From a virus, in IMG/VR virus record IMGVR_UViG_3300010885_021047, positions 1 through 28,548 of that record: a stretch of 28,548 nt of DNA; one strand, given 5' to 3'. The notes beneath the pieces are model-generated. The model was not told the origin of the DNA, searched no databases, and saw only the letters and a list, made by a program, of their open reading frames with translations. The translations under genes were made by a program, and so were the position numbers. Positions 13,454 through 28,548 of the stretch are shown here, piece by piece (positions within the stretch are counted from its first letter, which is position 1; each line of letters opens with the position of its first letter).

Positions 13454-16405
13454 ATGGCTGACTTACAAACTAATTTTAATGTTGCTCCTTTTTATGATGA
13501 TTATGATGAAAATAAGCAATATTATAGAATTCTTTTTAGACCTGCTACTGCAGTTCAAGCAAGAGAATTAACTCAGCTTCAAACTATTTTACAAAAACAA
13601 ATTTCAAGATTTGGTGATAGCGTATATCAAGACGGTTCTATTGTTGAAGGTTGTAATTTTACAACCTACCCAAACATGAAACAAATAAAGTTTAAAGATA
13701 GTAATAATGTAACTATAGATTTTTTAACTTTAACAACTACTTATACAGACGTTGACGTTGATGCAAACGGTAATACAGTAAATGCATCTAATACATTTCT
13801 TTTAGTATCTAATACTACTGGGTTAAGAGCAGGTATTTTTAGAGCATTTGAAGGATCAGAAGCTAACATTCCTAATACTAATCGTGCTTATGTGCAGTAT
13901 ATTACTTCTGGAGTAAATGGTGAATCGCAGTTTAATGTAGTATCAGAACAAATAGATGTTTATGATAAGCATCAAGATAAAAGCGGTCCATTAAATGCAG
14001 CTAATCGATTAGGTGTAATTTATACATTAACTTCTAACTCTACAGTAAATGCACTCGGTATTGGTTACGGTATGCATGTAGGACCAGGTACAATTTATCA
14101 AAAAGGGTTTTTCTTAAAAAATCTTCCACAAAACTTTATTCTTACCGAGCATTATTCAAACGCAGCAGGTTATAAAGTAGGATTTGACACAAGAGAGTAT
14201 ATTATTCAAGAAGCTCAAGATCCTTCTTTATTTGATAATTCAATAGGTAGTACTAATTATAGTGCGCCAGGAGCTTGGAGATTAAAACTAGTTCCAGTTC
14301 CTACTTATTATGATGCATCAAATACTTCAGTATCTATCCCTGTTAACTTTCTATCTGTAGTTGATTTTGATGGCGGAGATGGAAGAGCAGTAGTTAATAA
14401 CTTAAATCCTCAATATAGTATATTAGGGGATACATTAGCTACTCGTGTATTCGAAACAGCTGGTGATTTTATGGTAAAATCATTTCAATTAGATGTAGTT
14501 GCTCATGAATCAAATACACATGCAATGTATTATGTAGCCTCACCTGGTATTGCTTATGTAGATGGTTACAGGGTTGAATATCAAGCACCGAGAAGAGTTT
14601 ATGCTCCTAGAGCAAATGATACAGCCAGTTTTCCTAATGATTCTTTAAGACTTTCATTAGGTAGTTATTATTATGTTAATGAATGCTGTGGGGTTTTAGA
14701 TACACAGAGTTTACAAGAAATTACTTTCTATGATACTCCTCAACAAACATTATCTTTATATTTAGAGAGAACTAATTTTTCTGGCAATGTTTTAGGAAAA
14801 GCAAACGTAAGAGCTTTTAAATTTTTTGACGGTGTTCATGGAACCCCGGCTGCCAGATATTTAATTTATATTTTTAATGTAAGAATGACAGGTAACCCTG
14901 CTAATATAAGAAGTATCTGCGCTACTAGCGGCACCTATGGTAATTTTTATGCTGATGTTGTTCCTGATCCTATAACAGGTCTTTATACAACATATGATGA
15001 TAATTTAAAAGCTGCTTTGTATGATACTGGTCTTACAGGATTAAAAAGTCTGGTAGATGCTTCTAATAATAACGGGACAACTTTTTCTTATAGACCTCTT
15101 TTAAATACTAATTTAGTACCTACTTATTTTGGAAGCTCAGCCACATTTACTCTACCTGGACCAGATACATTTGGTTATGGAGTAGGTTTCTTAGACGATC
15201 CAACATCACAGGATGTATATGTTACTTGGGCTCAAGATAGTCTTGGTACTACAGTTTCTAATAGTATAACTATTAGTACTTCTAATTCTACTACTTCTAC
15301 TATAGCAAGTATATATCCATTTACTGCTGGACTTTACGTCGGTGACGCGCTAGCCATTACAAATACAGCTATTAATGCTACGAATCATGTATCTATTACT
15401 CAAGTGCTTGGCATTTCTTCTTTAGTAGTACAGCCGCCATTAACAGTAGTAGATACTCCAGGTAAATTAGAAATGAAACAGTTCTTTAAAAAAGGAACAA
15501 GAGTTAATTTTATTGGAAGTGGTAATACCGTACAAGAAAATTCTACTACTTCTTTAACTGTAAATTTATGTGTACCCCCTCTTTTGAACAATTACAATGT
15601 AATAGGTCAGATTCCTGTTACTAGAAATACAGCTCAACCAATCGGTAAAGTAGTAAAGAAAAATCAATATGTTAAAATTGATTGTAGTTCTGCTAGTTTA
15701 ACCGGTCCATGGTCGCTTGGTATTTCTGATGTTTATAAGATAGCTAACGTTTTCGTTGGTACAACTTATAGTGAAAGTAATCCAGATTATGGTTCTTGGT
15801 TTATTTTAAATAATGGTCAACAACCAGACACTTACTATAATTCGTCTATGTACATTGACCCACAATATAATGGAAACCTTACTTCATCTTCTAAATTACT
15901 AGTAAAATTTCATTGTTTTACCGCTAACATTACATCTACACAAGCAGGGTTTTTCTCTGTTAATTCTTATCCTATAGATGATATTGCTCCATCAACAGAT
16001 CCTAATGCTATAGCTACTGCAGAAATACCAGTATTTACAGATACTCTAGGTAACAAATATGATTTAAGAAATTATATTGATTTTAGAAATATTATGGCAA
16101 ACACTGCAGTTATTACAGATAATATTTCTTTAGCTACTATAAATCCTGTTGCTGGTAATACAATTTTTGCAACTGGTGGAGGTAATCAAAAAGTATTAGA
16201 TCCCGGTTCAGTTTTTAATTATAATGCTACGTATTATCTTCCAAGAAGAGATTATGTAGTTATAGATAAAAATTCAAATTTACAAGCAAAATTAGGACAA
16301 TCATCAAACAAGCCTCAATTCCCTGCCCTAAATAAATCAGGACTAGTAATTGCAGAAGTTTATGTGCCTCCATATCCATCACTAACATTTAAAGAAGCTG
16401 AATAA
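13454..16405 (+). CDS. DUF4815-type structural protein, first of three frame-split parts
   Basis: The 983-residue ORF starts after an AAGGA ribosome-binding site that overlaps the gp8 stop. The N-terminus FNVAPFYDDYDENKQYYRIL, then RPATAVQARELTQLQTILQKQI and GDSVYQDGSIVEG, is the DUF4815 signature found in very large baseplate/fibre proteins of T4-like marine phages. Further features are YVDGYRVEYQAPRRVYA, NKYDLRNYIDFRN (the usual DLRxYIDFR motif) and an end at VYVPPYPSLTFKEAE. In the homologues I know, VYxPPYPSL is followed in the same chain by the sequence now found in the next frame, so this ORF appears to lack its C-terminal half. It stops in TAA at 16403-16405, one base before the next ATG. 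It probably forms the outer baseplate attachment for fibres (gp9/gp10-like role, inferred). Confidence 0.85.
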   Translation: MADLQTNFNVAPFYDDYDENKQYYRILFRPATAVQARELTQLQTILQKQISRFGDSVYQDGSIVEGCNFTTYPNMKQIKFKDSNNVTIDFLTLTTTYTDVDVDANGNTVNASNTFLLVSNTTGLRAGIFRAFEGSEANIPNTNRAYVQYITSGVNGESQFNVVSEQIDVYDKHQDKSGPLNAANRLGVIYTLTSNSTVNALGIGYGMHVGPGTIYQKGFFLKNLPQNFILTEHYSNAAGYKVGFDTREYIIQEAQDPSLFDNSIGSTNYSAPGAWRLKLVPVPTYYDASNTSVSIPVNFLSVVDFDGGDGRAVVNNLNPQYSILGDTLATRVFETAGDFMVKSFQLDVVAHESNTHAMYYVASPGIAYVDGYRVEYQAPRRVYAPRANDTASFPNDSLRLSLGSYYYVNECCGVLDTQSLQEITFYDTPQQTLSLYLERTNFSGNVLGKANVRAFKFFDGVHGTPAARYLIYIFNVRMTGNPANIRSICATSGTYGNFYADVVPDPITGLYTTYDDNLKAALYDTGLTGLKSLVDASNNNGTTFSYRPLLNTNLVPTYFGSSATFTLPGPDTFGYGVGFLDDPTSQDVYVTWAQDSLGTTVSNSITISTSNSTTSTIASIYPFTAGLYVGDALAITNTAINATNHVSITQVLGISSLVVQPPLTVVDTPGKLEMKQFFKKGTRVNFIGSGNTVQENSTTSLTVNLCVPPLLNNYNVIGQIPVTRNTAQPIGKVVKKNQYVKIDCSSASLTGPWSLGISDVYKIANVFVGTTYSESNPDYGSWFILNNGQQPDTYYNSSMYIDPQYNGNLTSSSKLLVKFHCFTANITSTQAGFFSVNSYPIDDIAPSTDPNAIATAEIPVFTDTLGNKYDLRNYIDFRNIMANTAVITDNISLATINPVAGNTIFATGGGNQKVLDPGSVFNYNATYYLPRRDYVVIDKNSNLQAKLGQSSNKPQFPALNKSGLVIAEVYVPPYPSLTFKEAE

Positions 16406-16409
16406 TATG
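16403..16409 (+). other. Frame 2 to 3 junction TAATATG inside the long structural gene
   Basis: The first part stops at TAA 16403-16405 and an ATG in the +1 frame follows at 16407. The new frame is open only from 16386 (an in-frame TAA lies at 16383-16385), so any ribosomal slip would have to fall within about 20 bases, and no slippery heptamer is obvious there. The identical TAATATG string joins the genes at 19831-19837, and an AAGAAG lies 10 bases upstream. A split with stop-start re-initiation is therefore the simplest reading. A single-base sequencing or assembly error remains possible. Confidence 0.6.
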
Positions 16410-16829
16410 ACTTATAATAGACAAGATATAGCAGTACAAGTAAATATTAAGTCCATTAAAGGCTATACCATGAGAGAAATTGGGCGCCTTGATGATAGAA
16501 TTAAAAGACTAGAATATTATACAGTATTGAACGCTCTTTCATTAGATACTAAAACCTTATCTATTAGAAGTCCTGATGGTAAATATGAACGTCTTAAAAA
16601 CGGCCTTTTTGCAGATCCGTTTAATGATCACTCATTAGGCAGAGTAGATGACCCAGAATATCATATAGCTGTAGATTCAACTCAATCAATTGCAAGACCT
16701 GCATACAGCGAGACTTTTAATGGGTATCGTGTTAACTACACCGGTACTGGATTTAAAATTAAAGGAAGAATAGCTTTAATAGATTATGATAATGAACAGG
16801 TAATCAAACCCATACGCTACAACATATAG
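16407..16829 (+). CDS. Long structural protein, second of three frame-split parts
   Basis: The 140-residue ORF begins MTYNRQDIAVQVN and contains YTMREIGRLDDRIKRLEYYT, a conserved segment (YTMRDIGxxExRIxxLEYYT) that in DUF4815-family proteins follows directly on from the VYVPPYPSL segment seen at the end of the preceding ORF. Next come KNGLFADPFNDHS and DPEYHIAVD, also typical continuing sequence. The last residues, PIRYNI before the stop at 16827-16829, look like out-of-frame translation. The family-like continuation NPYATTYRNC instead lies in frame 1 from about 16807. The ORF is therefore a middle fragment of one polypeptide, either expressed separately or extended by +1 frameshifting near 16806-16812. 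It is coupled to the first part by TAATATG. Confidence 0.75.
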   Translation: MTYNRQDIAVQVNIKSIKGYTMREIGRLDDRIKRLEYYTVLNALSLDTKTLSIRSPDGKYERLKNGLFADPFNDHSLGRVDDPEYHIAVDSTQSIARPAYSETFNGYRVNYTGTGFKIKGRIALIDYDNEQVIKPIRYNI

Positions 16830-19800
16830 AAATTGCACAGAAGCTTACTATAGTTTTAAAGGTATTTTAAATTTATACCCTAACTATGATAATTATACAA
16901 GCGTTAATCAAGCAGCTCCTCAAGTTATAAATGTAGATTTGGCTGCCGGATTTTCAAGTCTTTTAGCTAATAATAAATTAAAAACACAAGATATATCTAC
17001 TGTATCTGCAGCTCCAGTTCAAGTAGATAAACAAGGTAGTACTAATTATTGGTCTCAGACTACTACAACTACAGTAAAAGATATTTCAGTTCAATCTACA
17101 ACACTAAAAAATGATTTAGGTGATTTAGTTACTGATGTTTCAAACCTTCCATATATGAGAAGCAGATTAATTTCAATTGCTGCTTATGGAATGAAACCTA
17201 ATACAAAATTATTTTGTTATTTTGATAATGTCAATGTAACTCAATATTGTGCTCCGGCAAAAATTAATCCTAGCTATGCAGATGTTAATGGTAATATAGA
17301 TCCTACTAAATTAGATACTTTACATGCAGGTTATGAAGATCAGGTCCTTTTACAAACAGGTGCTTTTTCAACTAATAATTCTGTATCTGTAGTAACTACT
17401 GATAGCAAAGGTCAAGCTTTCTTACAGTTACAACTTCCAGGTAATACATTTAGAGCTGGAGATAGATCTGTACTTTTAACGAATGTAGATAATTTATCTG
17501 CAACTGGTGCTATTTTAACTACTGCAACTGGTACTTATACTGCATCATCTTTATCAGTTACTAAAAAGAATGTATCTTTTAATATTATACAACCTTCATT
17601 TTCTACTACTACAGTACAGAGTAGTACTTCAACAAACTATACAACACAAGACCCTCCTCCTCCTGCTCCAAATCCTCCATATGTTGATTATGGTGGTGGT
17701 TCATGCTTTGTAAAAGGTTCTTTAGTAACTATGGCAGACGGGTCGCTTAAAGTTATAGAAGATGTTGTTATCGGTGACGTTTTAAAAGGTTATAATACAG
17801 ATAATTTAGTAGTAAAATTTGATCATCAAATGCTAGATAACGGAAGTAGAAAGCCTAACCTATACGGTATTAATGGTATGGGTAAACTAATGACTTCCGA
17901 GCATCCAGTATTAACTACTAATGGATGGAAATCTATTGAACCTAGTGAAACTCAAAGATTAGAGCCGCAGATATTTGATATTATTACTGGTAAATTAGAA
18001 GTAGGTGATAAAATTATTTGTCAGGATGATTCATATCTTTTAGTTGAAAGTATTGAAAAATATGAAAATGAGCCACAACAAGAAGTTTATAACTTTAAAT
18101 TAAATGGCGATCACACATATATTGTAAATGGTTTAATAGTTCATAATAAAGATGGTGACGGGGCAGGAAACGATTCTGGTGGTGGAGATAATGATGATCC
18201 AGTAGCAGAAACGTTTCAAATTAAAACAAACTCAAATGCTAACGTTCCAGGATTTTTTATTACTGGAGTAGGTGTTTACTTTAAAAGAAAAAGTGCTACT
18301 TTAGGTGCTACAGTTCACGTATGTGAAACTATTGCAGGCACTCCTAATGTAGTTAGACAGGTTGCAAGAGCACGTTTAAATTCAGCAGATATTGGAGTCA
18401 GTGATGATTCTTCTGTAGAAACAATATTTTATTTTGATACTCCTGCTCTGATACAAGCTAATATAGATTATGCTTTTTATATTGTTCCAGATGGCAATAA
18501 TCCTGATTATGAAATATGGATTTCAGAAGTAGGTGGTACTGATAAGTTAACTTCTAGAGCAGTTACTCAACAACCATATCCTGGAATAATGTGGGTATCT
18601 TCGAATGGTAGATCTTGGACATCAGTTCAATCTTCTGATATTAAATTTAATATCTATAGAGCTTCATTCAAATATGGTTCAGCTCAGTTAGTATTTAGAA
18701 ATGAACCTAATGATTTTATTACAATGTCTGGTTTATTAAGAAATAATACTGCTACTGCTATCCAATTAGGAGACGTAGTGTATGCAGCTAACACTTTAAA
18801 CACCAGTCAAATTTTATCTGATACAACTAAAAAACCTTTTGGTATAGTAAGTCAAATTGATGAATTAAATCAAAAAGTAGTTATAAGTAGATCAAACGGG
18901 TTATTTAGTAATACAGCGTTTCCATTAATTAAATTTTTAAGAGTTTCTCAGATTGGCAATACTCAACAATTAATTAGCTCTAATATTATTGCATCTGCAA
19001 ACGTAGCTACAATAGATGATATCTATTATCATGGAGTAGTACCAAAATTTACTACTACAGAACCAGCAGGCACAACTACAACCTTAACATTTTATGGAAC
19101 TGCTAATAGCACATATGGGTATGCATATGATTCAATAGGAACTAATGTTTTTAAAGAATCTTTACATTTATTTACTGATTATGAAAGAGTAATAAAAAGT
19201 TATTCTAATGAAATAGCTATTGGAAGCTTTGGCGCTAACGGTACTTCTGCTGTTGCAATTACTATGTTTACTAATCAAAAATATCTATCTCCTGTAATAG
19301 ATTTAGCAACTAAAACTAGTAATTTTATTAAAAATTTAATTAGTTCAAATAGCTATAATGAATCTACGAGATATGGTGGTGCATTAAATAAGTATATTTC
19401 AAAACCGGTACAGATGGATATTGATGCAGAAGATCTATTAGTTTACGTAACTGGTTATAGACCAGCAGGTACTGATATTTTAGTATATGGTAAATTTAAA
19501 AATAAATTAGATAATGCTAATTTTAATGATATTCCATGGACTCTAATGACATTGTCTAAAACACAATCTAGCCAGTTTAATTCTCCAAAGGACACACAAG
19601 ATTATTCTGAATACATTTATTATGTTCCTACAGGCAGTACAACATCTAATCAAACTACTGCTTATTTGGATCCTGCAACTACACCACCTAATATTCTTTC
19701 TTATTATAGCACACTAGGTGGAGCAGAGCTTAACCGATTTAATATGTTTATGATAAAGATTATTTTAATTTCAAACGATCCAATTAAAATTCCTACTATG

Positions 19801-19833
19801 AGGGACGTAAGAGCTCTTGCGCTTATGAAATAA
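16804..19833 (+). CDS. Long structural protein, third frame-split part with embedded Hint domain
   Basis: The frame is open from 16804 (after a TAA at 16801-16803). No ATG occurs before 17155; a TTG at 16939 lacks a ribosome-binding site, and upstream codons already read like family sequence (NPYATTYRNCTEAYYSFKG). It therefore probably depends on a +1 shift from the preceding part. Contents: NLPYMRSRLISIAAYGMKPNTKLFCYFD, a Gly/Thr region, a Pro-rich linker (DPPPPAPNPPY), the Hint domain at 17704-18147, an acidic Gly linker, then DPVAETFQI with the conserved C-terminal modules (DYAFYIVPD, IWISEVGG, GIMWVSSNGRSW) and NKYISKPVQMDIDAEDLLVYVTGYRPAGTDI. This is the distal part of the DUF4815-associated baseplate/fibre protein. 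It ends TAATATG into the next gene. Confidence 0.8.
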   Translation, partial: SNPYATTYRNCTEAYYSFKGILNLYPNYDNYTSVNQAAPQVINVDLAAGFSSLLANNKLKTQDISTVSAAPVQVDKQGSTNYWSQTTTTTVKDISVQSTTLKNDLGDLVTDVSNLPYMRSRLISIAAYGMKPNTKLFCYFDNVNVTQYCAPAKINPSYADVNGNIDPTKLDTLHAGYEDQVLLQTGAFSTNNSVSVVTTDSKGQAFLQLQLPGNTFRAGDRSVLLTNVDNLSATGAILTTATGTYTASSLSVTKKNVSFNIIQPSFSTTTVQSSTSTNYTTQDPPPPAPNPPYVDYGGGSCFVKGSLVTMADGSLKVIEDVVIGDVLKGYNTDNLVVKFDHQMLDNGSRKPNLYGINGMGKLMTSEHPVLTTNGWKSIEPSETQRLEPQIFDIITGKLEVGDKIICQDDSYLLVESIEKYENEPQQEVYNFKLNGDHTYIVNGLIVHNKDGDGAGNDSGGGDNDDPVAETFQIKTNSNANVPGFFITGVGVYFKRKSATLGATVHVCETIAGTPNVVRQVARARLNSADIGVSDDSSVETIFYFDTPALIQANIDYAFYIVPDGNNPDYEIWISEVGGTDKLTSRAVTQQPYPGIMWVSSNGRSWTSVQSSDIKFNIYRASFKYGSAQLVFRNEPNDFITMSGLLRNNTATAIQLGDVVYAANTLNTSQILSDTTKKPFGIVSQIDELNQKVVISRSNGLFSNTAFPLIKFLRVSQIGNTQQLISSNIIASANVATIDDIYYHGVVPKFTTTEPAGTTTTLTFYGTANSTYGYAYDSIGTNVFKESLHLFTDYERVIKSYSNEIAIGSFGANGTSAVAITMFTNQKYLSPVIDLATKTSNFIKNLISSNSYNESTRYGGALNKYISKPVQMDIDAEDLLVYVTGYRPAGTDILVYGKFKNKLDNANFNDIPWTLMTLSKTQSSQFNSPKDTQDYSEYIYYVPTGSTTSNQTTAYLDPATTPPNILSYYSTLGGAELNRFNMFMIKIILISNDPIKIPTMRDVRALALMK
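16806..16812 (+). promoter_or_regulatory. Candidate +1 frameshift site (AAA CCC A)
   Basis: Frame 3 reads ATC AAA CCC ATA CGC and soon terminates. Frame 1 reads AAC CCA TAC GCT ACA ACA TAT and continues for about 1,000 codons. A proline tRNA on CCC (16809-16811) slipping forward one base onto CCA (16810-16812) would join the two as IKPYATTYRNC, matching the expected continuous protein. The two frames overlap only from 16804 to 16829. +1 slippage on CCC is a known mechanism in phages. No stop codon or clear downstream stimulator was seen beside it, so an indel or sequencing error is an equal alternative. Confidence 0.4.
17704..18147 (+). other. Hint (intein-like) domain without homing endonuclease; +1 residue is Lys
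   Basis: Intein blocks are visible in order within about 148 residues. Block A starts at Cys (17704-17706): CFVKGSLV, MADGSLKVIEDVVIGD. Block B has TSEHPVLTTNGWKSIE, with the TxxH His at 17902-17904. Block F/G is VYNFKLNGDHTYIVNG, ending LIVHN at 18145-18147. The next residue is Lys, not the Cys/Ser/Thr needed for canonical splicing, which is the pattern of bacterial-intein-like or Hedgehog-like Hint domains that cleave rather than splice cleanly. There is no space for a homing endonuclease. Pro-rich and acidic Gly-rich linkers flank it, as expected for an autonomous inserted module. Self-processing is inferred, not shown. Confidence 0.85.
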
Positions 19834-23572: not shown

Positions 23573-23901
23573 TGTCTGCACAAAATAATCTAACTATTGA
23601 TAGAGGCACAGATTTTATTTATAATATAACTTTAATAGATTCAGCAGGGGTAACTGTAGACTTAACAGGGTATACTGGCAACTCCCAGTTAAGAACTTCT
23701 TATAATTCAAATGTTTATATTACAATGAACGTTGCTGTGTCCACCGTAAACACTGGAATAATTACATTATCAATGAACTCGCATACTACTAGTTCTCTAA
23801 CCGCTCCAAGGTATCTTTATGACCTAGTTTTAACGAGCAATAATGTTGTATCTAGATTACTTGAAGGTTATATAACTGTAAACCCTAGCGTTACCCGTTA
23901 A
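23572..23901 (+). CDS. Small beta-sandwich phage structural protein
   Basis: The 109-residue protein follows a pattern common in small phage tail/baseplate-associated proteins: an N-terminal IDRGTDFIYNITLIDSAG, then VTVDLTGYTGNSQLRT, a GIITLSMNS strand and a final LYDLVLTSNN...RLLEGYITVNPSVTR. The order rGxdfxxxixlxDxxGxxvDLTGyt, then Gxixlxl, then YxYDlxxt, then rllxGxixvxPxVTR is that of an Ig-like or BppU-N-like beta sandwich. It ends the plus-strand operon, and its last 11 bases overlap the 3' end of the convergent glycosyltransferase gene. I see no terminator hairpin in this overlap. Confidence 0.72.
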   Translation: MSAQNNLTIDRGTDFIYNITLIDSAGVTVDLTGYTGNSQLRTSYNSNVYITMNVAVSTVNTGIITLSMNSHTTSSLTAPRYLYDLVLTSNNVVSRLLEGYITVNPSVTR

Positions 23902-26683
23902 CCTTGTATACAAATGATCCTGTATGGTCGCATAAGATAGTAGGGTCTGCATATATTTTAAACCCTTTTTGCTGACACATCTTAGCAAAATATAAATCTT
24001 CTGAAAATGTATGCGCATGATCTATTGCAGATTTATAGACAAATTGCGGATAACCTATTTCAACTATTACATGCTTTTTAATTAAAGCACATCCAAATCC
24101 GCATGCACCTACTTGTGTTAATCCTCTATCTTTAAGTTTGTCATAGGGCATATGTGTAAACCCGCCATTGTCATTGGCTTCAAAAATTTCTAAAGTATGC
24201 TGCCCTTGTATACGTTGTATATACAAACCAGATACAACATCCTTATCATGATTAAGAAGTTTAATAAGTGTATCAGGTGCAAATGAAATATCTGAATCAA
24301 TTGCAAATAGATAATCATAAGGACCTTTAACTACCCACTCTGCAATTAAATTTCTTACCTGATCAACTTGATATCCGTAAAAAAATTGAAAATCAGTTTC
24401 ATATCCTTCCGGAATAATAAGATCGTAAATAGCTTTAAAAGTAGTAGCTTCAATATTTCTAGCTGTTGGAATTGCGATTAAAATCTTTTTTTTTGACATA
24501 TTATTTAACTTCTCTGTTGTATCATATGCAATGATATCTTTAGTAGGAATTATTTCTACATTTAATGGACGTGGGTTTGAATTTACTTCAACTTTATTAA
24601 TTTGTAGTTTTGCATCACCAGCAATCTTAGATGCATTTTTATTTTGAATATCACCGTTAACTTTATAGTCATTAAGAGGATTCTTATCATTATAAAGCAT
24701 TACAATATCAGAAACAACTGCTATCTTATTAGGATCAGCTTGTTCTAGGATATTATAAAATGTGGCATTATCACCACCTGCTTTAAACCATTCACCATTT
24801 TCATCTTTAAATACAGAATCATCTTCAATATTGTGAACCAATTCTGATTTAAAAACTCGAAGATGTGGATAAGGCATTCCCCAATTGAATTTGTAATTTC
24901 GGTATGCTTTAGTATCTCTTACTTCTTTTGGATATGGTTGTGATTGAAGAGGAATATTATCAACCTCAGACCAGCAACTACCATAAGCATAATCTGTCTT
25001 ATTATCCGCAAATAAATTGTTATACATGTTAAAGATATTTGGATCGTTAACAAGAGCATCATCTCCATCAAGGAGTACTACAAGACTGTCTTTAGGTACA
25101 TCTCGTTTAATGTTTACTATTTGATTGTATACTGCACCACGGTTTACTGGATTATCTACAACAGTAAAATGTTTAATTAAATTAGGATATCTACCTTTAA
25201 TATATTGTACTACTAAATCTAAACTACTATCATTACTACAATCATTTATCAGGTGCATATGCCAATTATTATAATTCTGTGTTGCAACAGAATCAATACA
25301 TCTAATCAAATAATCAAATGCATTGTAGAATGGTGTGATAACGTGTATTCGTTTTTCTTCTGATAATCTATACGTATTCCATTCCTCTGGATTACTAAAA
25401 CGTCTACCAAATACTTTGTGAACACGGTCGTTGATATATGATACTTTACGATAATCTTCTACTGGTAGATACAAACCAAGTTTTTTAAAGAAATGTTGCT
25501 TCCATTGTAATGCAACAGAATCCCATCCTGCAATATCCTTTACTATACTGCAAGCATACATTTTCTGCTGATGCAAATACTTATTATTGTAAGCTTCAAT
25601 ACACATGCGAGCAAATTTATTAGCCTGATAGTTAATATCTATATTAGGATATAAACTATTACCTTCAATAGCATAATCTAAATGATAGCATGCTGATTCA
25701 ATTGCAGTTTCTTCTAAAGCACCAAACCTTACAGTTAAAAGAGGAGTATTATAGTATAATGACTCTAAAGCTGAAATACCAAACGTCTCAGGAAACGCAC
25801 CAGGGAAGACAAAGAAGCTAGCTTTTTGAAATAATTCTGCTACTTCTTTTTGCGGTATAATACCGGTAAAAGTAACGTCTTGCTCCTTGTATATTTTTTG
25901 TTGAGCAAGATCTTCTAGTTGTTTTTGTTGTTCATCTGGTTCTGCAGTAGAACTAAATTTATAGTACCCACCAGCCACTACTAATTTTGCATTTGGTATA
26001 TTACGTTTAATTAAAGGCCAAACATTGTTTAATAGTGGCTTAAGACCTTTAGAAACAGCCGCCACATATACAAACAAATTAGGATCTTTTTGTGAAACGT
26101 TTGTTTCGTCAAAATACTTAACTATACCATTTCTAGTCTGATATACTTTTTTCTTTAATACTTCAAAATTACGGCGATCACCTCCATGCCAACAATTAGT
26201 TACATATGAAGTATGGAAGTCTGATAATGTGAACATCTCATGAATATAGTTATTCAAAAGGAGCTTCTCTACATGCGGATCACCCCAGATAAACGTATCA
26301 TGCATCCATAAAACTTTATGTTTGCTAACACTTCTTACTTTATTAAAAATACTATACGGATGTTTCGTGGGATTTTCTATTTGTGATTGAAGTTCTACTG
26401 GAACGAATGGAGCGATGCAACGGGATGAAATCATTACATCATAGTAATCAGCACAATTTGCAAGATTTCTAATATGCTGATATGTTACTCCAGAATAAAT
26501 TCCTGGTTTGCAGTCGACATCTTCACAATGATTAAAAACTGTAACATCAAAACCGACTTTAACCAATTCTTCAGCCATAAGACATAAGGCTGATTCAGAA
26601 CCGCCAAGAGCACGGTTTTTAATAGTATTACCATCATATACTAGACCAATAGAATCAATAATAACAATAGATGGTTTGCTCAT
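23891..26683 (-). CDS. Three-domain glycosyltransferase (GT4 + GT2 + GT2-like)
   Basis: The 930-residue protein starts MSKPSIVIID. The start at 26683 is chosen over 26728 because GGGG lies six bases upstream and a sigma70-like promoter places the transcript start near 26710. Residues 1-410 are a GT4 (GT-B) enzyme: RALGGSESALCLMAEEL, LWMHDTF, AKLVVAGGYY, and the E-x7-E motif PETFGISALESL. Residues about 440-665 are a GT2 (GT-A) enzyme: IHVITPFYNAFDYLIRCIDS, LINDCSND, and the DxD motif VVLLDGDDALV. Residues 729-930 are a second GT-A-like domain: ILIAIPTARN, QVDQVRNLIAEW, and YLFAIDSDISF with DSD. Such chains transfer successive sugars; in a phage the targets could be virion proteins, host surface glycans or DNA. 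It is the only minus-strand gene inside the fibre region. Confidence 0.88.
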   Translation of the reverse strand: MSKPSIVIIDSIGLVYDGNTIKNRALGGSESALCLMAEELVKVGFDVTVFNHCEDVDCKPGIYSGVTYQHIRNLANCADYYDVMISSRCIAPFVPVELQSQIENPTKHPYSIFNKVRSVSKHKVLWMHDTFIWGDPHVEKLLLNNYIHEMFTLSDFHTSYVTNCWHGGDRRNFEVLKKKVYQTRNGIVKYFDETNVSQKDPNLFVYVAAVSKGLKPLLNNVWPLIKRNIPNAKLVVAGGYYKFSSTAEPDEQQKQLEDLAQQKIYKEQDVTFTGIIPQKEVAELFQKASFFVFPGAFPETFGISALESLYYNTPLLTVRFGALEETAIESACYHLDYAIEGNSLYPNIDINYQANKFARMCIEAYNNKYLHQQKMYACSIVKDIAGWDSVALQWKQHFFKKLGLYLPVEDYRKVSYINDRVHKVFGRRFSNPEEWNTYRLSEEKRIHVITPFYNAFDYLIRCIDSVATQNYNNWHMHLINDCSNDSSLDLVVQYIKGRYPNLIKHFTVVDNPVNRGAVYNQIVNIKRDVPKDSLVVLLDGDDALVNDPNIFNMYNNLFADNKTDYAYGSCWSEVDNIPLQSQPYPKEVRDTKAYRNYKFNWGMPYPHLRVFKSELVHNIEDDSVFKDENGEWFKAGGDNATFYNILEQADPNKIAVVSDIVMLYNDKNPLNDYKVNGDIQNKNASKIAGDAKLQINKVEVNSNPRPLNVEIIPTKDIIAYDTTEKLNNMSKKKILIAIPTARNIEATTFKAIYDLIIPEGYETDFQFFYGYQVDQVRNLIAEWVVKGPYDYLFAIDSDISFAPDTLIKLLNHDKDVVSGLYIQRIQGQHTLEIFEANDNGGFTHMPYDKLKDRGLTQVGACGFGCALIKKHVIVEIGYPQFVYKSAIDHAHTFSEDLYFAKMCQQKGFKIYADPTILCDHTGSFVYKVNG

Positions 26684-26693
26684 AATAAACCCC

Positions 26694-26701
26694 AATAAAT
26701 A
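26694..26701 (+). promoter_or_regulatory. Possible late promoter box for the collagen-like fibre gene
   Basis: AATAAATA is one mismatch from the T4 late consensus TATAAATA and lies about 50 bases before the plus-strand fibre ATG at 26753. A new promoter is needed here because the minus-strand gene separates this fibre from the upstream operon. Weak evidence. Confidence 0.3.
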
Positions 26702-26716
26702 CATAATATAGTTATT

Positions 26717-26745
26717 AATATATATCACCTTTAAAAAACAGGCAA
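26717..26745 (-). promoter_or_regulatory. Candidate sigma70-type (early) promoter of the glycosyltransferase gene
   Basis: On the minus strand TTGCCT (26745-26740) is followed after 17 bases by TATATT (26722-26717), matching four and five of six consensus positions. The predicted start near 26710 gives a leader of about 27 bases to the ATG at 26683 and includes the GGGG ribosome-binding site. This suggests expression independent of the late baseplate operon. The local A+T richness makes chance matches possible. Confidence 0.45.
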
Positions 26746-26752
26746 CTTTTTT

Positions 26753-28548
26753 ATGTCAGTACTAAATTATTATCAATGGGCGTCTTATAACGGATTGCCT
26801 CAATTTGAATTGGTTGTTACTTCTGAATTAATTCCACCTGGTGGGCCTCCTCCTGGAAAAACAGAATTAGGTGATTTTATTTTATGTGATAAAGGTGTTA
26901 TTGTACCTCCATCGTTTTATTATTTACATGAGATGGTATATAATGGATTTTACAGTGGACAAACTATAAGATTTTTAAACTATCCTAATGCTTATGGACC
27001 TTTCCAAGTTGTTCCAGTATGGAACCAAACTTTAGGAATAGATGGCACTAATCTTACTGTTCAAACGTTTTGCGACGGGTTCTCTTCTAAATTTTATATT
27101 CCGCAATTTTTTTGGGATAAAAACACTGTAAAATCTAGTGACGTCACAGTATCTATTAACGGAACTGTATTAACTTCTGGCTATACTTATAATGCTAGCG
27201 ATGCTTCTGTTACATTTGATACAATACCTGATTTTGACCCTGTAACACATGCAGCTGCTGCTCTTACTTTTTCTGTACCTATTACACTTTCAACCTATGC
27301 TGCAGCTGGTGCAACTGGATATACAGGGTCTGCTGGGTTTACCGGATCGTCTGGATTTAATGGATCAACTGGATTTAACGGCTCAAAAGGGTTTAATGGG
27401 TCTATAGGTTATACAGGTTCTACAGGTGCAGGTTATACTGGATCAGCATCAACTGCTGCAGGATATGCAGGGTCAAAAGGATTTACAGGGTCAGCAGGTG
27501 CACCTGGTTCTGCAGGTGGTGTAGGTACACCTTCTGAAATTCAATATTTTTTAAGTACTGGTGTTGCTACCTATACTTTAAATAGAGCACCTAATTCTAC
27601 AAAAAACATTTTAGTAGTAGTGAACGGTCTAATTCAAGTCCCGGATGTTGATTATAGTATAGCTGGTTCTTCTATTACTTTCAACTCTAATTTAGATGTT
27701 AAATCTGAAATAGAAATAATATATTTTGGTAATGATGTTGGTTATCGTGGCTCTGAAGGATATATGGGGTCTGTAGGGTATGCAGGATCAGTAGGATCTT
27801 TAGGATATACCGGTTCTATAGGATATAGTGGTTCAGTTGGATATATTGGTTCTAAGGGCTATTCTGGATCTGTGGGTTATACTGGATCTCTAGGATATAC
27901 AGGTTCAGTTGGGTTTACAGGGTCTAAAGGTGATAATGCAGCAGTGTTTATATCACCAGGAGCTCCTCCTGCAGGTGCATTTTCACCCGGTGAACTTTGG
28001 TGGGATTCAGATAGCGGTATTTTAAGTATTTACTATAATGATGATTTAACATGGGTAGCTGTTGACAATACTTTAATAGGTCCAATAGGATATACTGGCT
28101 CTTCTAGTTCCGGCGGAGGTGGCAATGGGTATACAGGATCTAAAGGTAATATTGGATACAATGGGTCTGCAGGTTATACTGGTTCAATAGGAATGTTGGG
28201 TTATACTGGATCTGCTGGTTCTGGAGGTGGTGGCAGTGGGTATACAGGATCTGCAGGTTATACTGGTTCTATAGGAATAGGTTATACTGGTTCAATAGGA
28301 ATGTTGGGTTATACTGGATCTGCTGGTTCTGGAGGTGGAGGCTCAGGTTATACTGGATCTAAAGGTGATTTGGGAAATATAGGTTATACTGGATCTTTTG
28401 GAATAGGATACAATGGGTCTGCAGGTTATACTGGTTCAAAAGGAATAGGGTTTACAGGATCAAAAGGTGATCAAGGTATACAGGGTACTACAGGGTATAC
28501 CGGTTCTTCTGGATCCGGAGGAGGAAGTTCTAGTTTTACTAACATTTA
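26753..28548 (+). CDS. Collagen-like tail fibre, 3' end beyond the window
   Basis: The open frame starts ATG TCA GTA at 26753 (AGG ten bases upstream) and is still open at the window end, 598 codons on. Residues 1-180 are a non-repetitive N-terminus (SVLNYYQWASYNGLPQFEL) with a beta module VTVSINGTVLTSGYTYN. Three collagen-like blocks of Gly-X-Y triplets, mostly GYTGSx/GFTGSx, lie at about 185-260, 333-395 and 440 onward. Between them are a fibre module ILVVVNGLIQVPDVDYSI (about 264-330) and a second module with GELWWDSDSGILSIYYNDD then TWVAV (about 400-440). It should trimerise into an elongated fibre. The Ser/Thr richness of the Y positions and the neighbouring glycosyltransferase invite a glycosylation hypothesis. 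No C-terminal tip is visible. Confidence 0.85.
   Translation, partial: MSVLNYYQWASYNGLPQFELVVTSELIPPGGPPPGKTELGDFILCDKGVIVPPSFYYLHEMVYNGFYSGQTIRFLNYPNAYGPFQVVPVWNQTLGIDGTNLTVQTFCDGFSSKFYIPQFFWDKNTVKSSDVTVSINGTVLTSGYTYNASDASVTFDTIPDFDPVTHAAAALTFSVPITLSTYAAAGATGYTGSAGFTGSSGFNGSTGFNGSKGFNGSIGYTGSTGAGYTGSASTAAGYAGSKGFTGSAGAPGSAGGVGTPSEIQYFLSTGVATYTLNRAPNSTKNILVVVNGLIQVPDVDYSIAGSSITFNSNLDVKSEIEIIYFGNDVGYRGSEGYMGSVGYAGSVGSLGYTGSIGYSGSVGYIGSKGYSGSVGYTGSLGYTGSVGFTGSKGDNAAVFISPGAPPAGAFSPGELWWDSDSGILSIYYNDDLTWVAVDNTLIGPIGYTGSSSSGGGGNGYTGSKGNIGYNGSAGYTGSIGMLGYTGSAGSGGGGSGYTGSAGYTGSIGIGYTGSIGMLGYTGSAGSGGGGSGYTGSKGDLGNIGYTGSFGIGYNGSAGYTGSKGIGFTGSKGDQGIQGTTGYTGSSGSGGGSSSFTNI
28171..28338 (+). repeat. 60-base direct duplication in the collagen-like gene
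   Basis: Bases 28171-28230 recur identically at 28279-28338, 108 bases (36 codons) apart. They encode GYTGSIGMLGYTGSAGSGGG. Silent third positions are identical as well, so the copies arose by recent duplication rather than by convergent codon choice. Shorter related units (GGTTATACTGG-type) recur throughout the gene. Confidence 0.8.

Follow-up and report, generated by a model that had tools for sequence, protein, structure and literature searches.

A putative self-processing Hint domain followed by a conserved lysine in the hinge of a viral VrlC/DUF4815 baseplate protein

The window, i.e., the whole stretch of 28,548 nucleotides that was analysed (IMG/VR virus record IMGVR_UViG_3300010885_021047), carries an operon organized as a T4-like baseplate module, in which the wedge proteins phrog_219, phrog_17744, and phrog_438 are followed by a DUF4815/VrlC gene and then by fibres. 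DUF4815 and phrog_358 matches over the gene and the baseplate operon context identify it as VrlC, which is regarded as a component of two-layered baseplates (PMC7029224). The first domain of its C-terminal part resembles ORF65, the DUF4815 protein in the solved baseplate of Staphylococcus phage phi812; the model of this domain matched ORF65 residues 792–947 with Z 20.7 and 18.7 at 32% identity, and profile comparison gave an E-value of 6e-29. The host of the Hint domain is thus a homologue of a baseplate protein (phrog_358, PF16075, phi812 ORF65), as expected from the first-pass annotation, which had placed the domain in a virion protein. The tail module further comprises an opposite-strand ORF of 945 aa (23891–26728, minus strand) that resembles a glycosyltransferase by eye only, and a collagen-like fibre ORF with GYTGS repeats (26753–28546; PF01391, E 4e-20) that is cut by the contig end.

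The VrlC gene is a single ORF in Rhizobium phage RHph_I1_18, Ochrobactrum phage OC, and Sinorhizobium phage phiM7, and is read in three frames in the window (Table 1). At the first break, a stop at 16405 is followed one base on by an ATG at 16407 (EAE-stop, then MTYNRK). This EAE-stop/M.YNR split (window 16385–16440) recurs in six related contigs (L104, L105, L109, L110, L111, and L113), which identifies it as genuine: a conserved fission of the gene for a baseplate protein that other phages encode as a single chain. The second frame change near 16829 (window 16795–16850) has no clear start codon for the next frame, was not seen in L104, L105, L109–L111, and L113, and could be either genuine or an artefact of assembly. 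The third frame is open from 16804, with a TTG start at 16939 that was assigned mechanically, and is homologous to one chain in the cultured relatives L002–L004.

Table 1. Features of the VrlC/DUF4815 gene and its Hint domain in the window
Feature	Position	Strand	Basis
VrlC/DUF4815 gene, first ORF, N-terminal part, ends ..LTFKEAE-stop	13454–16405	+	PF16075 E 1e-39; phrog_358 E 1e-139
VrlC/DUF4815 gene, second piece	16407–16829	+	phrog_358 E 2e-31, profile 947–1073
Third VrlC frame, carries Hint and C-terminal VrlC modules	16804–19833	+	phrog_358 E 2e-86
Pro/Gly-rich linker DPPPPAPNPPYVDYGGGS, N-flank of Hint	17650–17703	+	Sequence; low-complexity hinge in relatives
Hint (BIL-type) domain, Cys1–Asn148	17704–18147	+	Translation, profile search, AF2, Foldseek/VIA matches
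Cys1, predicted N-S acyl shift nucleophile	17704–17706	+	Cys in 81/81 relatives
Block B TSEH, T64-x-x-H67 (T64, 17893–17895; H67, 17902–17904)	17893–17904	+	His in 81/81, T/S in 80/81 relatives
Block G His147-Asn148	18142–18147	+	HN in 81/84 relatives scoring >60
Lys +1 (AAA)	18148–18150	+	Lys in 51, Arg in 11 of 87 non-redundant relatives
Acidic Gly-rich linker DGDGAGNDSGGGDND, C-flank past Lys	18151–18195	+	Sequence
First domain of VrlC C-part (DPVAETF...), beta-rich	18196–18690	+	AF2 pLDDT 87; phi812 ORF65 match

Translation of 17704–18150, in the same frame as the ORF ending at 19833, reads CFVKGSLVTMADG...LMTSEHPVLTTNGW...VYNFKLNGDHTYIVNGLIVHN, then K. All residues listed by the first-pass annotation (Cys1, TxxH, terminal HN, then Lys) are present, and the flexible linkers it described on both sides (DPPPPAPNPPYVDYGGGS upstream, KDGDGAGNDSGGGDND downstream) are seen in the sequence. 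By itself, the window sequence scored 20.3 bits against PT-HINT, compared with a Pfam gathering cut-off of 27.7 bits; because its Pfam scores lie below the gathering cut-offs, the domain would be overlooked by routine annotation. A Pfam AXH match over the same stretch, also below cut-off, was read as a fold-level echo. The top phmmer match was the BIL domain of C. thermocellum (2lwy, E 1e-5), and a profile of the window Hint and its relatives matched 2lwy, an A-type BIL, with E 1e-17 and 6y75 with E 5e-15. Full-length matches with 30% identity were found to inteins in Vibrio phage helicases. The AlphaFold2 model built from 36 relatives has a Hint fold (pLDDT 91, pTM 0.85), for which Tetrahymena BUBL1 BIL2 ranked best in Foldseek and VIA (Z 19.3, 143 residues, 2.0 Å, 23% identity), followed by the gp41-1 intein (Z 16.2) and the C. 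thermocellum BIL (Z 15.9); Hedgehog 1at0 was also matched (Z 13.6). Structure prediction with matches to BILs and inteins therefore bears out the fold that had been called from the letters alone, and a chance match is excluded because the profile matches solved BIL and intein structures and the predicted fold reaches Z 12–19.

With a predicted horseshoe beta fold, Cys1, and the block-B His, the domain belongs to the Hint superfamily. Its C-terminal His-Asn, the absence of Cys, Ser, or Thr at +1, and its placement in an inter-domain linker of a conserved baseplate protein, from which it is missing in near relatives, are those of A-type BILs. Class 1 inteins have Cys, Ser, or Thr where the window has Lys (AAA, 18148–18150). 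BUBL BIL2 domains have ubiquitin-like flanks, whereas here the N-flank is VrlC and the C-flank matches the phi812 baseplate protein ORF65. Of the BIL2 zinc site (H48, H125), H125 falls at Asn130 of the family by hand count on the alignment (Asn in 68, His in 2 of 81).

A scan of viral contigs with the single window sequence returned no close relative; relatives were recovered only with alignments and a DNA pattern. Among 87 viral HN-ending domains, which are non-redundant after removal of copies at 80% identity, the +1 residue was Lys (n = 51), Arg (n = 11), Gly (n = 6), Cys (n = 5), Ser (n = 5), Ala (n = 3), or another residue (n = 6). Grouped by profile score, Lys or Arg occupied +1 in 26/26 domains above 150 bits, 21/23 at 120–150 bits, 11/13 at 100–120 bits, and 4/19 at 60–100 bits. 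Information content is 2.26 bits at +1 versus 0.79, 0.70, and 0.66 bits at +2, +3, and +4; Lys/Arg is conserved at +1, and positions +2 to +6 vary. Members with Lys at +1 have a median identity of 34%, and Cys1, the block-B His, and HN are invariant in 81/81 relatives. Seeds of the scan behind these counts (A3) were all Lys members with the +1 residue removed, which leaves bias possible; a counter-scan against this seed bias (A6), seeded entirely with members that have Cys or Arg at +1, added 19 non-redundant HN domains, of which 16 have Lys at +1, 2 have Arg, and 1 has Cys. The pattern HTYxVxGxxVHN, used in the first pattern scan, mixes true inteins and other Hint groups and gave Ser (n = 41), Cys (n = 29), Gly (n = 12), and Lys (n = 11) at +1. 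Given this mixture, Lys is a clade trait that is not general to viral Hints. What the first-pass annotation had presented as a single odd site is instead conserved in a clade of viral Hints, and retention of Lys in dozens of related domains of unrelated viral proteins suggests a role for this residue in the reaction.

The +1 residue was also compared between contexts. All 16 ORFs that stop one residue past HN end with Lys (5 to 8 groups at 40–50% identity). Viral ORFs with HNK-stop ends include L219, L227, L233, L240, L245, L249, L254, L056, L106, L214, L241, and L277, among others. Where +1 precedes other sequence, 20 Lys stand against 1 Arg, versus 13 Lys and 9 Arg where a further Hint follows; nine of the 11 Arg lie in the latter context (Fisher p 0.0008, kinship ignored, with many Arg rows representing one clade). 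Selection on Lys, and for Lys over Arg outside arrays, suggests a further role for Lys. An N-degron role of an N-terminal Lys was set aside as inapplicable to HNK-stop ends. Several Hints per ORF, with a single Lys or Arg between them (..VHN-K-CF.., ..VHN-R-CF..), occur in L284, L296, L218, and L207; in such arrays, the spacer residue serves both as +1 of the domain before it and as −1 of the domain after it. A second, HN-less Hint type closes arrays or ORFs in L031, L083, L017, L186, L289, L290, and L311 and ends with NGYAV[TS][GS]W[PI]R[ED]DDF[DE]Y plus ~30 residues. A separate viral group (L022, L026, L036, L037, L054, L063, L074, L075, and L080) has poly-Gly, a Hint starting CFLPGT.., and HN-S-K-[DEQN] before the stop, i.e., Ser at +1 and a three-residue tail.

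The Hint is absent from the hinge of the cultured VrlC relatives examined (L002–L004), which have a short low-complexity linker there. The majority of the 80 VrlC contigs closest in the C-domain also lack it, including those nearest to the window (L104, 61%; L110, 58%; L105 and L109, 56%). Because these closest VrlC relatives are without it, the Hint is dispensable at the VrlC hinge. Hints at the same hinge were found in L008, L106–L108, L126, the L083/L031/L095 group, L190, L191, L193, L199, L209–L212, L215, L216, L218, L229, L231, L235, L236, and L247 and, as judged by the following sequence, in L287, L294, and L321; in many hinge-Hint contigs, the folded C-part begins 2–17 residues past the Asn. 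The closest relatives of the window Hint itself (L068, L189, L188, L021, and L186; 49–53% identity) sit in other proteins, and the same Hint type is also found in unrelated viral proteins. Mapping location in VrlC onto a tree of 81 Hint domains takes 11 changes, of which well-supported branches force at least four, and the Hint has therefore moved repeatedly between virus proteins. It is thus a mobile and dispensable module that has nevertheless retained its catalytic residues. VrlC of the L083 group stops past three tandem Hints, of which the first two have Cys at +1 and the third lacks HN, and the C-part is a separate new ORF starting MTKPIAQTF..; in L106, the N-half ends with HNK-stop and the C-half begins at MNLSGNPIAQTF, and L107 and L108 are similar. 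Since VrlC is split at the Hint hinge in these viruses, it can work as two chains there. As read from the ORFs, these forms document supply as two chains and do not imply cutting by the Hint. Hint-less hinges of L111 and L113–L116 carry ..NCGGGGCGG.., which is akin to the Gly/Cys linkers between the Hints of L031; such a sequence may be what a lost or spliced-out domain left behind.

A pattern-limited scan of ~85,000 bacterial and archaeal genomes for a cellular origin returned only two distant actinobacterial matches, and the Lys +1 clade therefore looks viral. No virion protein with a member of this clade was found among cultured phages. Providencia phage PSTNGR1 (L265, 4554–5507) and Achromobacter phage 2-1 (L270, 2083–3525) have Hint-like domains with Cys1 and without HN, located near the C-terminus of proteins that we take to be virion proteins and that are possible laboratory models for N-terminal cleavage alone. 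The Hint in the tape measure protein of Ruegeria phage DSS3-P1 is intein-like, with Thr at +1.

In HINT domains, Cys1 forms a thioester with the preceding residue and the terminal Asn cyclises. The chemistry and the biological purpose that we infer for the window Hint go beyond its residues, position, conservation, distribution, and predicted fold. That it processes itself in some way is probable. In our preferred reading, to which we give not quite an even chance, the insert is an active self-processing Hint of the A-type BIL kind in the VrlC/DUF4815 hinge that makes a thioester, cyclises its Asn, cleaves, and to some extent re-joins. Once folded, Cys1 would take the acyl group of Ser −1 with assistance from H67, giving a thioester, and Asn148 would cyclise with help from H147, releasing the C-part with an N-terminal Lys. 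Most of the N-part thioester would then be hydrolysed, leaving two chains, and some would be captured by the alpha-amine of the new Lys, giving a re-joined chain without the Hint. Lys +1 would be under selection because its positive charge or its amine favours one of the processing steps. Without Cys, Ser, or Thr at +1, the standard branched ester cannot form (PMC4031507). In type A BILs, which have HN and no +1 nucleophile, cleavage predominates and splicing can proceed by aminolysis (PMC4031507; PMC7664689). The earlier verdict that the domain could not perform standard splicing holds for the branched ester, which is impossible at Lys (PMC4031507), but is too strict with regard to aminolysis, by which A-type BILs can splice.

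Several lines of evidence are consistent with the A-type BIL reading: the invariant catalytic set, the modelled fold with BILs as best matches and the 2lwy profile match (E 1e-17), conservation of Lys/Arg at +1 beside variable positions +2 to +6, also in the Lys-free-seeded scan, and the encoding of VrlC in several viruses as two chains, with the division falling at this hinge beside a Hint. Against it, A-type BILs in the literature are found in bacterial and not in virion proteins, and pure cleavage offers no obvious reason for the terminal Lys at all 16 ORF ends. In a rival reading, the side-chain amine of Lys +1 would attack the thioester at Cys1, either ahead of Asn cyclisation or following it, whereby N-part and C-part become joined by a Ser-(epsilon)Lys isopeptide bond and the Hint is lost; in HNK-stop ORFs, the product would be an N-part capped by one side-chain-linked lysine. 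Such isopeptide splicing, which we consider unlikely but worth serious attention, draws on BIL2, the closest solved fold, reported to form an isopeptide with the lysine epsilon-NH2 (PMC8616854), on the near-exclusive use of Lys at one-residue ends and before other sequence, with Arg mainly before a further Hint, and on the exchange of Lys for the nucleophile Cys at the VrlC site in L126 and L031, which are nested in the Lys clade. It is weakened by Arg, which is unable to accept an acyl group this way and yet stands at +1 in 11/87 domains and in 2/19 of the counter-scan, by the neglect of kinship in the Lys/Arg context test, and by the poor nucleophilicity of lysine side chains unless their pKa is lowered. 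The clade as a whole may have turned +1 into a built-in lysine acceptor by which the two parts of a virion protein, or such a protein and a single lysine, are isopeptide-joined and the Hint is removed; this would be protein splicing that uses Lys as its +1 nucleophile, an idea we also hold to be unlikely.

The acceptor could instead lie in trans, with an amine of a different virion protein or of the host surface attacking the VrlC N-part thioester and producing an inter-chain cross-link at baseplate assembly or adsorption. BIL2 needs no ATP to couple ubl4 with ubl5 and Ras (PMC8616854), a Hint at the very C-terminus (HNK-stop) in many relatives makes in-cis joining of two folded parts impossible, and in L106–L108 the Hint closes the N-half while the C-half has an ORF of its own. 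The acceptor would be hypothetical, however, the window C-part follows in cis, and pure N-terminal activation would not require that HN be kept; trans-conjugation is therefore, in our judgement, distinctly improbable. Retention of the catalytic residues also bears on the view that the Hint is a catalytically inactive folded domain left as an idle spacer in a tolerant linker. Its linker position and its absence from the closest VrlC relatives (L104, L105, L109, and L110) do mark it as dispensable, but an idle spacer would lose Cys1, the block-B His, and HN, which are invariant despite the low median identity, and a third, HN-less Hint type in some arrays (L031, L186) illustrates how a decayed or otherwise employed domain appears; we therefore think inactivity quite improbable. 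Descent from an ordinary mobile mini-intein that lost its +1 nucleophile has the least credit with us and seems very remote. The Hint fold, the full-length matches to the Vibrio phage helicase inteins, and the Cys +1 relatives at the VrlC site (L126, L031) fit such an origin, whereas the variable linker in place of a conserved active site, the missing homing endonuclease, the lack of the intein hallmark at +1, the retention of Lys over deep divergence, and the frequent change of host protein do not.

If active, the Hint would be a self-processing step built into phage baseplate proteins. Members of the Lys +1 family are widespread among environmental viral contigs but score too low for routine annotation to pick them up, and their conserved +1 residue bears on what decides between cleavage, aminolysis, and conjugation in HINT domains that lack a +1 nucleophile. 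Should Lys prove to be the acceptor, the reaction would add a new chemistry to protein splicing and would be useful for building defined isopeptide links. BIL domains are already known in bacteria and ciliates; our search of the open-access literature turned up neither a report of BIL domains from virion proteins of phages nor a Hint group for which a conserved Lys/Arg at +1 is described.

The host protein corresponds to VrlC/DUF4815 of T4-like, Twort-like, pelagi-, and cyanomyophages and shares its fold with phi812 ORF65; unlike the window protein, VrlC of the cultured relatives examined (L002–L004) has no Hint in its hinge. PT-HINT domains of polymorphic toxins share the superfamily with the window Hint (31/36 of its relatives match PF07591) and in some cases the C-terminal placement, but the window Hint scores below the Pfam cut-off and is followed by a baseplate domain and not by a toxin. 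Class 1 inteins (gp41-1, DnaB, RecA) share the fold (Z 13–16), Cys1, TxxH, and HN, and differ from the window Hint, which has Lys at +1, no conserved catalytic site as its insertion point, and no endonuclease. With the C. thermocellum BIL (2LWY), the window Hint shares the Hint fold, Cys1, the block-B His, the terminal His-Asn, the absence of Cys, Ser, or Thr at +1, and the position in a variable region between domains. The +1 residue of that BIL is reportedly Ala, as ascribed to Dassa's work of 2004. An A-type BIL of Magnetospirillum has Tyr at +1 (PMC4031507). The window Hint departs from A-type BILs in its host, a phage baseplate protein, and in its conserved Lys/Arg at +1. Tetrahymena thermophila BUBL1 BIL2 (6TMM, 6Y75), the best structural match, is likewise without a +1 nucleophile; its authors describe splicing with an isopeptide bond to the lysine epsilon-NH2 and conjugation of the N-flank to other proteins (PMC8616854). 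The coupling through an activated thioester that the first-pass annotation had envisaged would thus have a real precedent in BIL2, whose N-flank is joined to lysine side chains (PMC8616854), although BIL2 belongs to a eukaryotic locus, has ubiquitin-like flanks, and is zinc-regulated, whereas the window Hint has baseplate flanks and its Lys +1 in cis.
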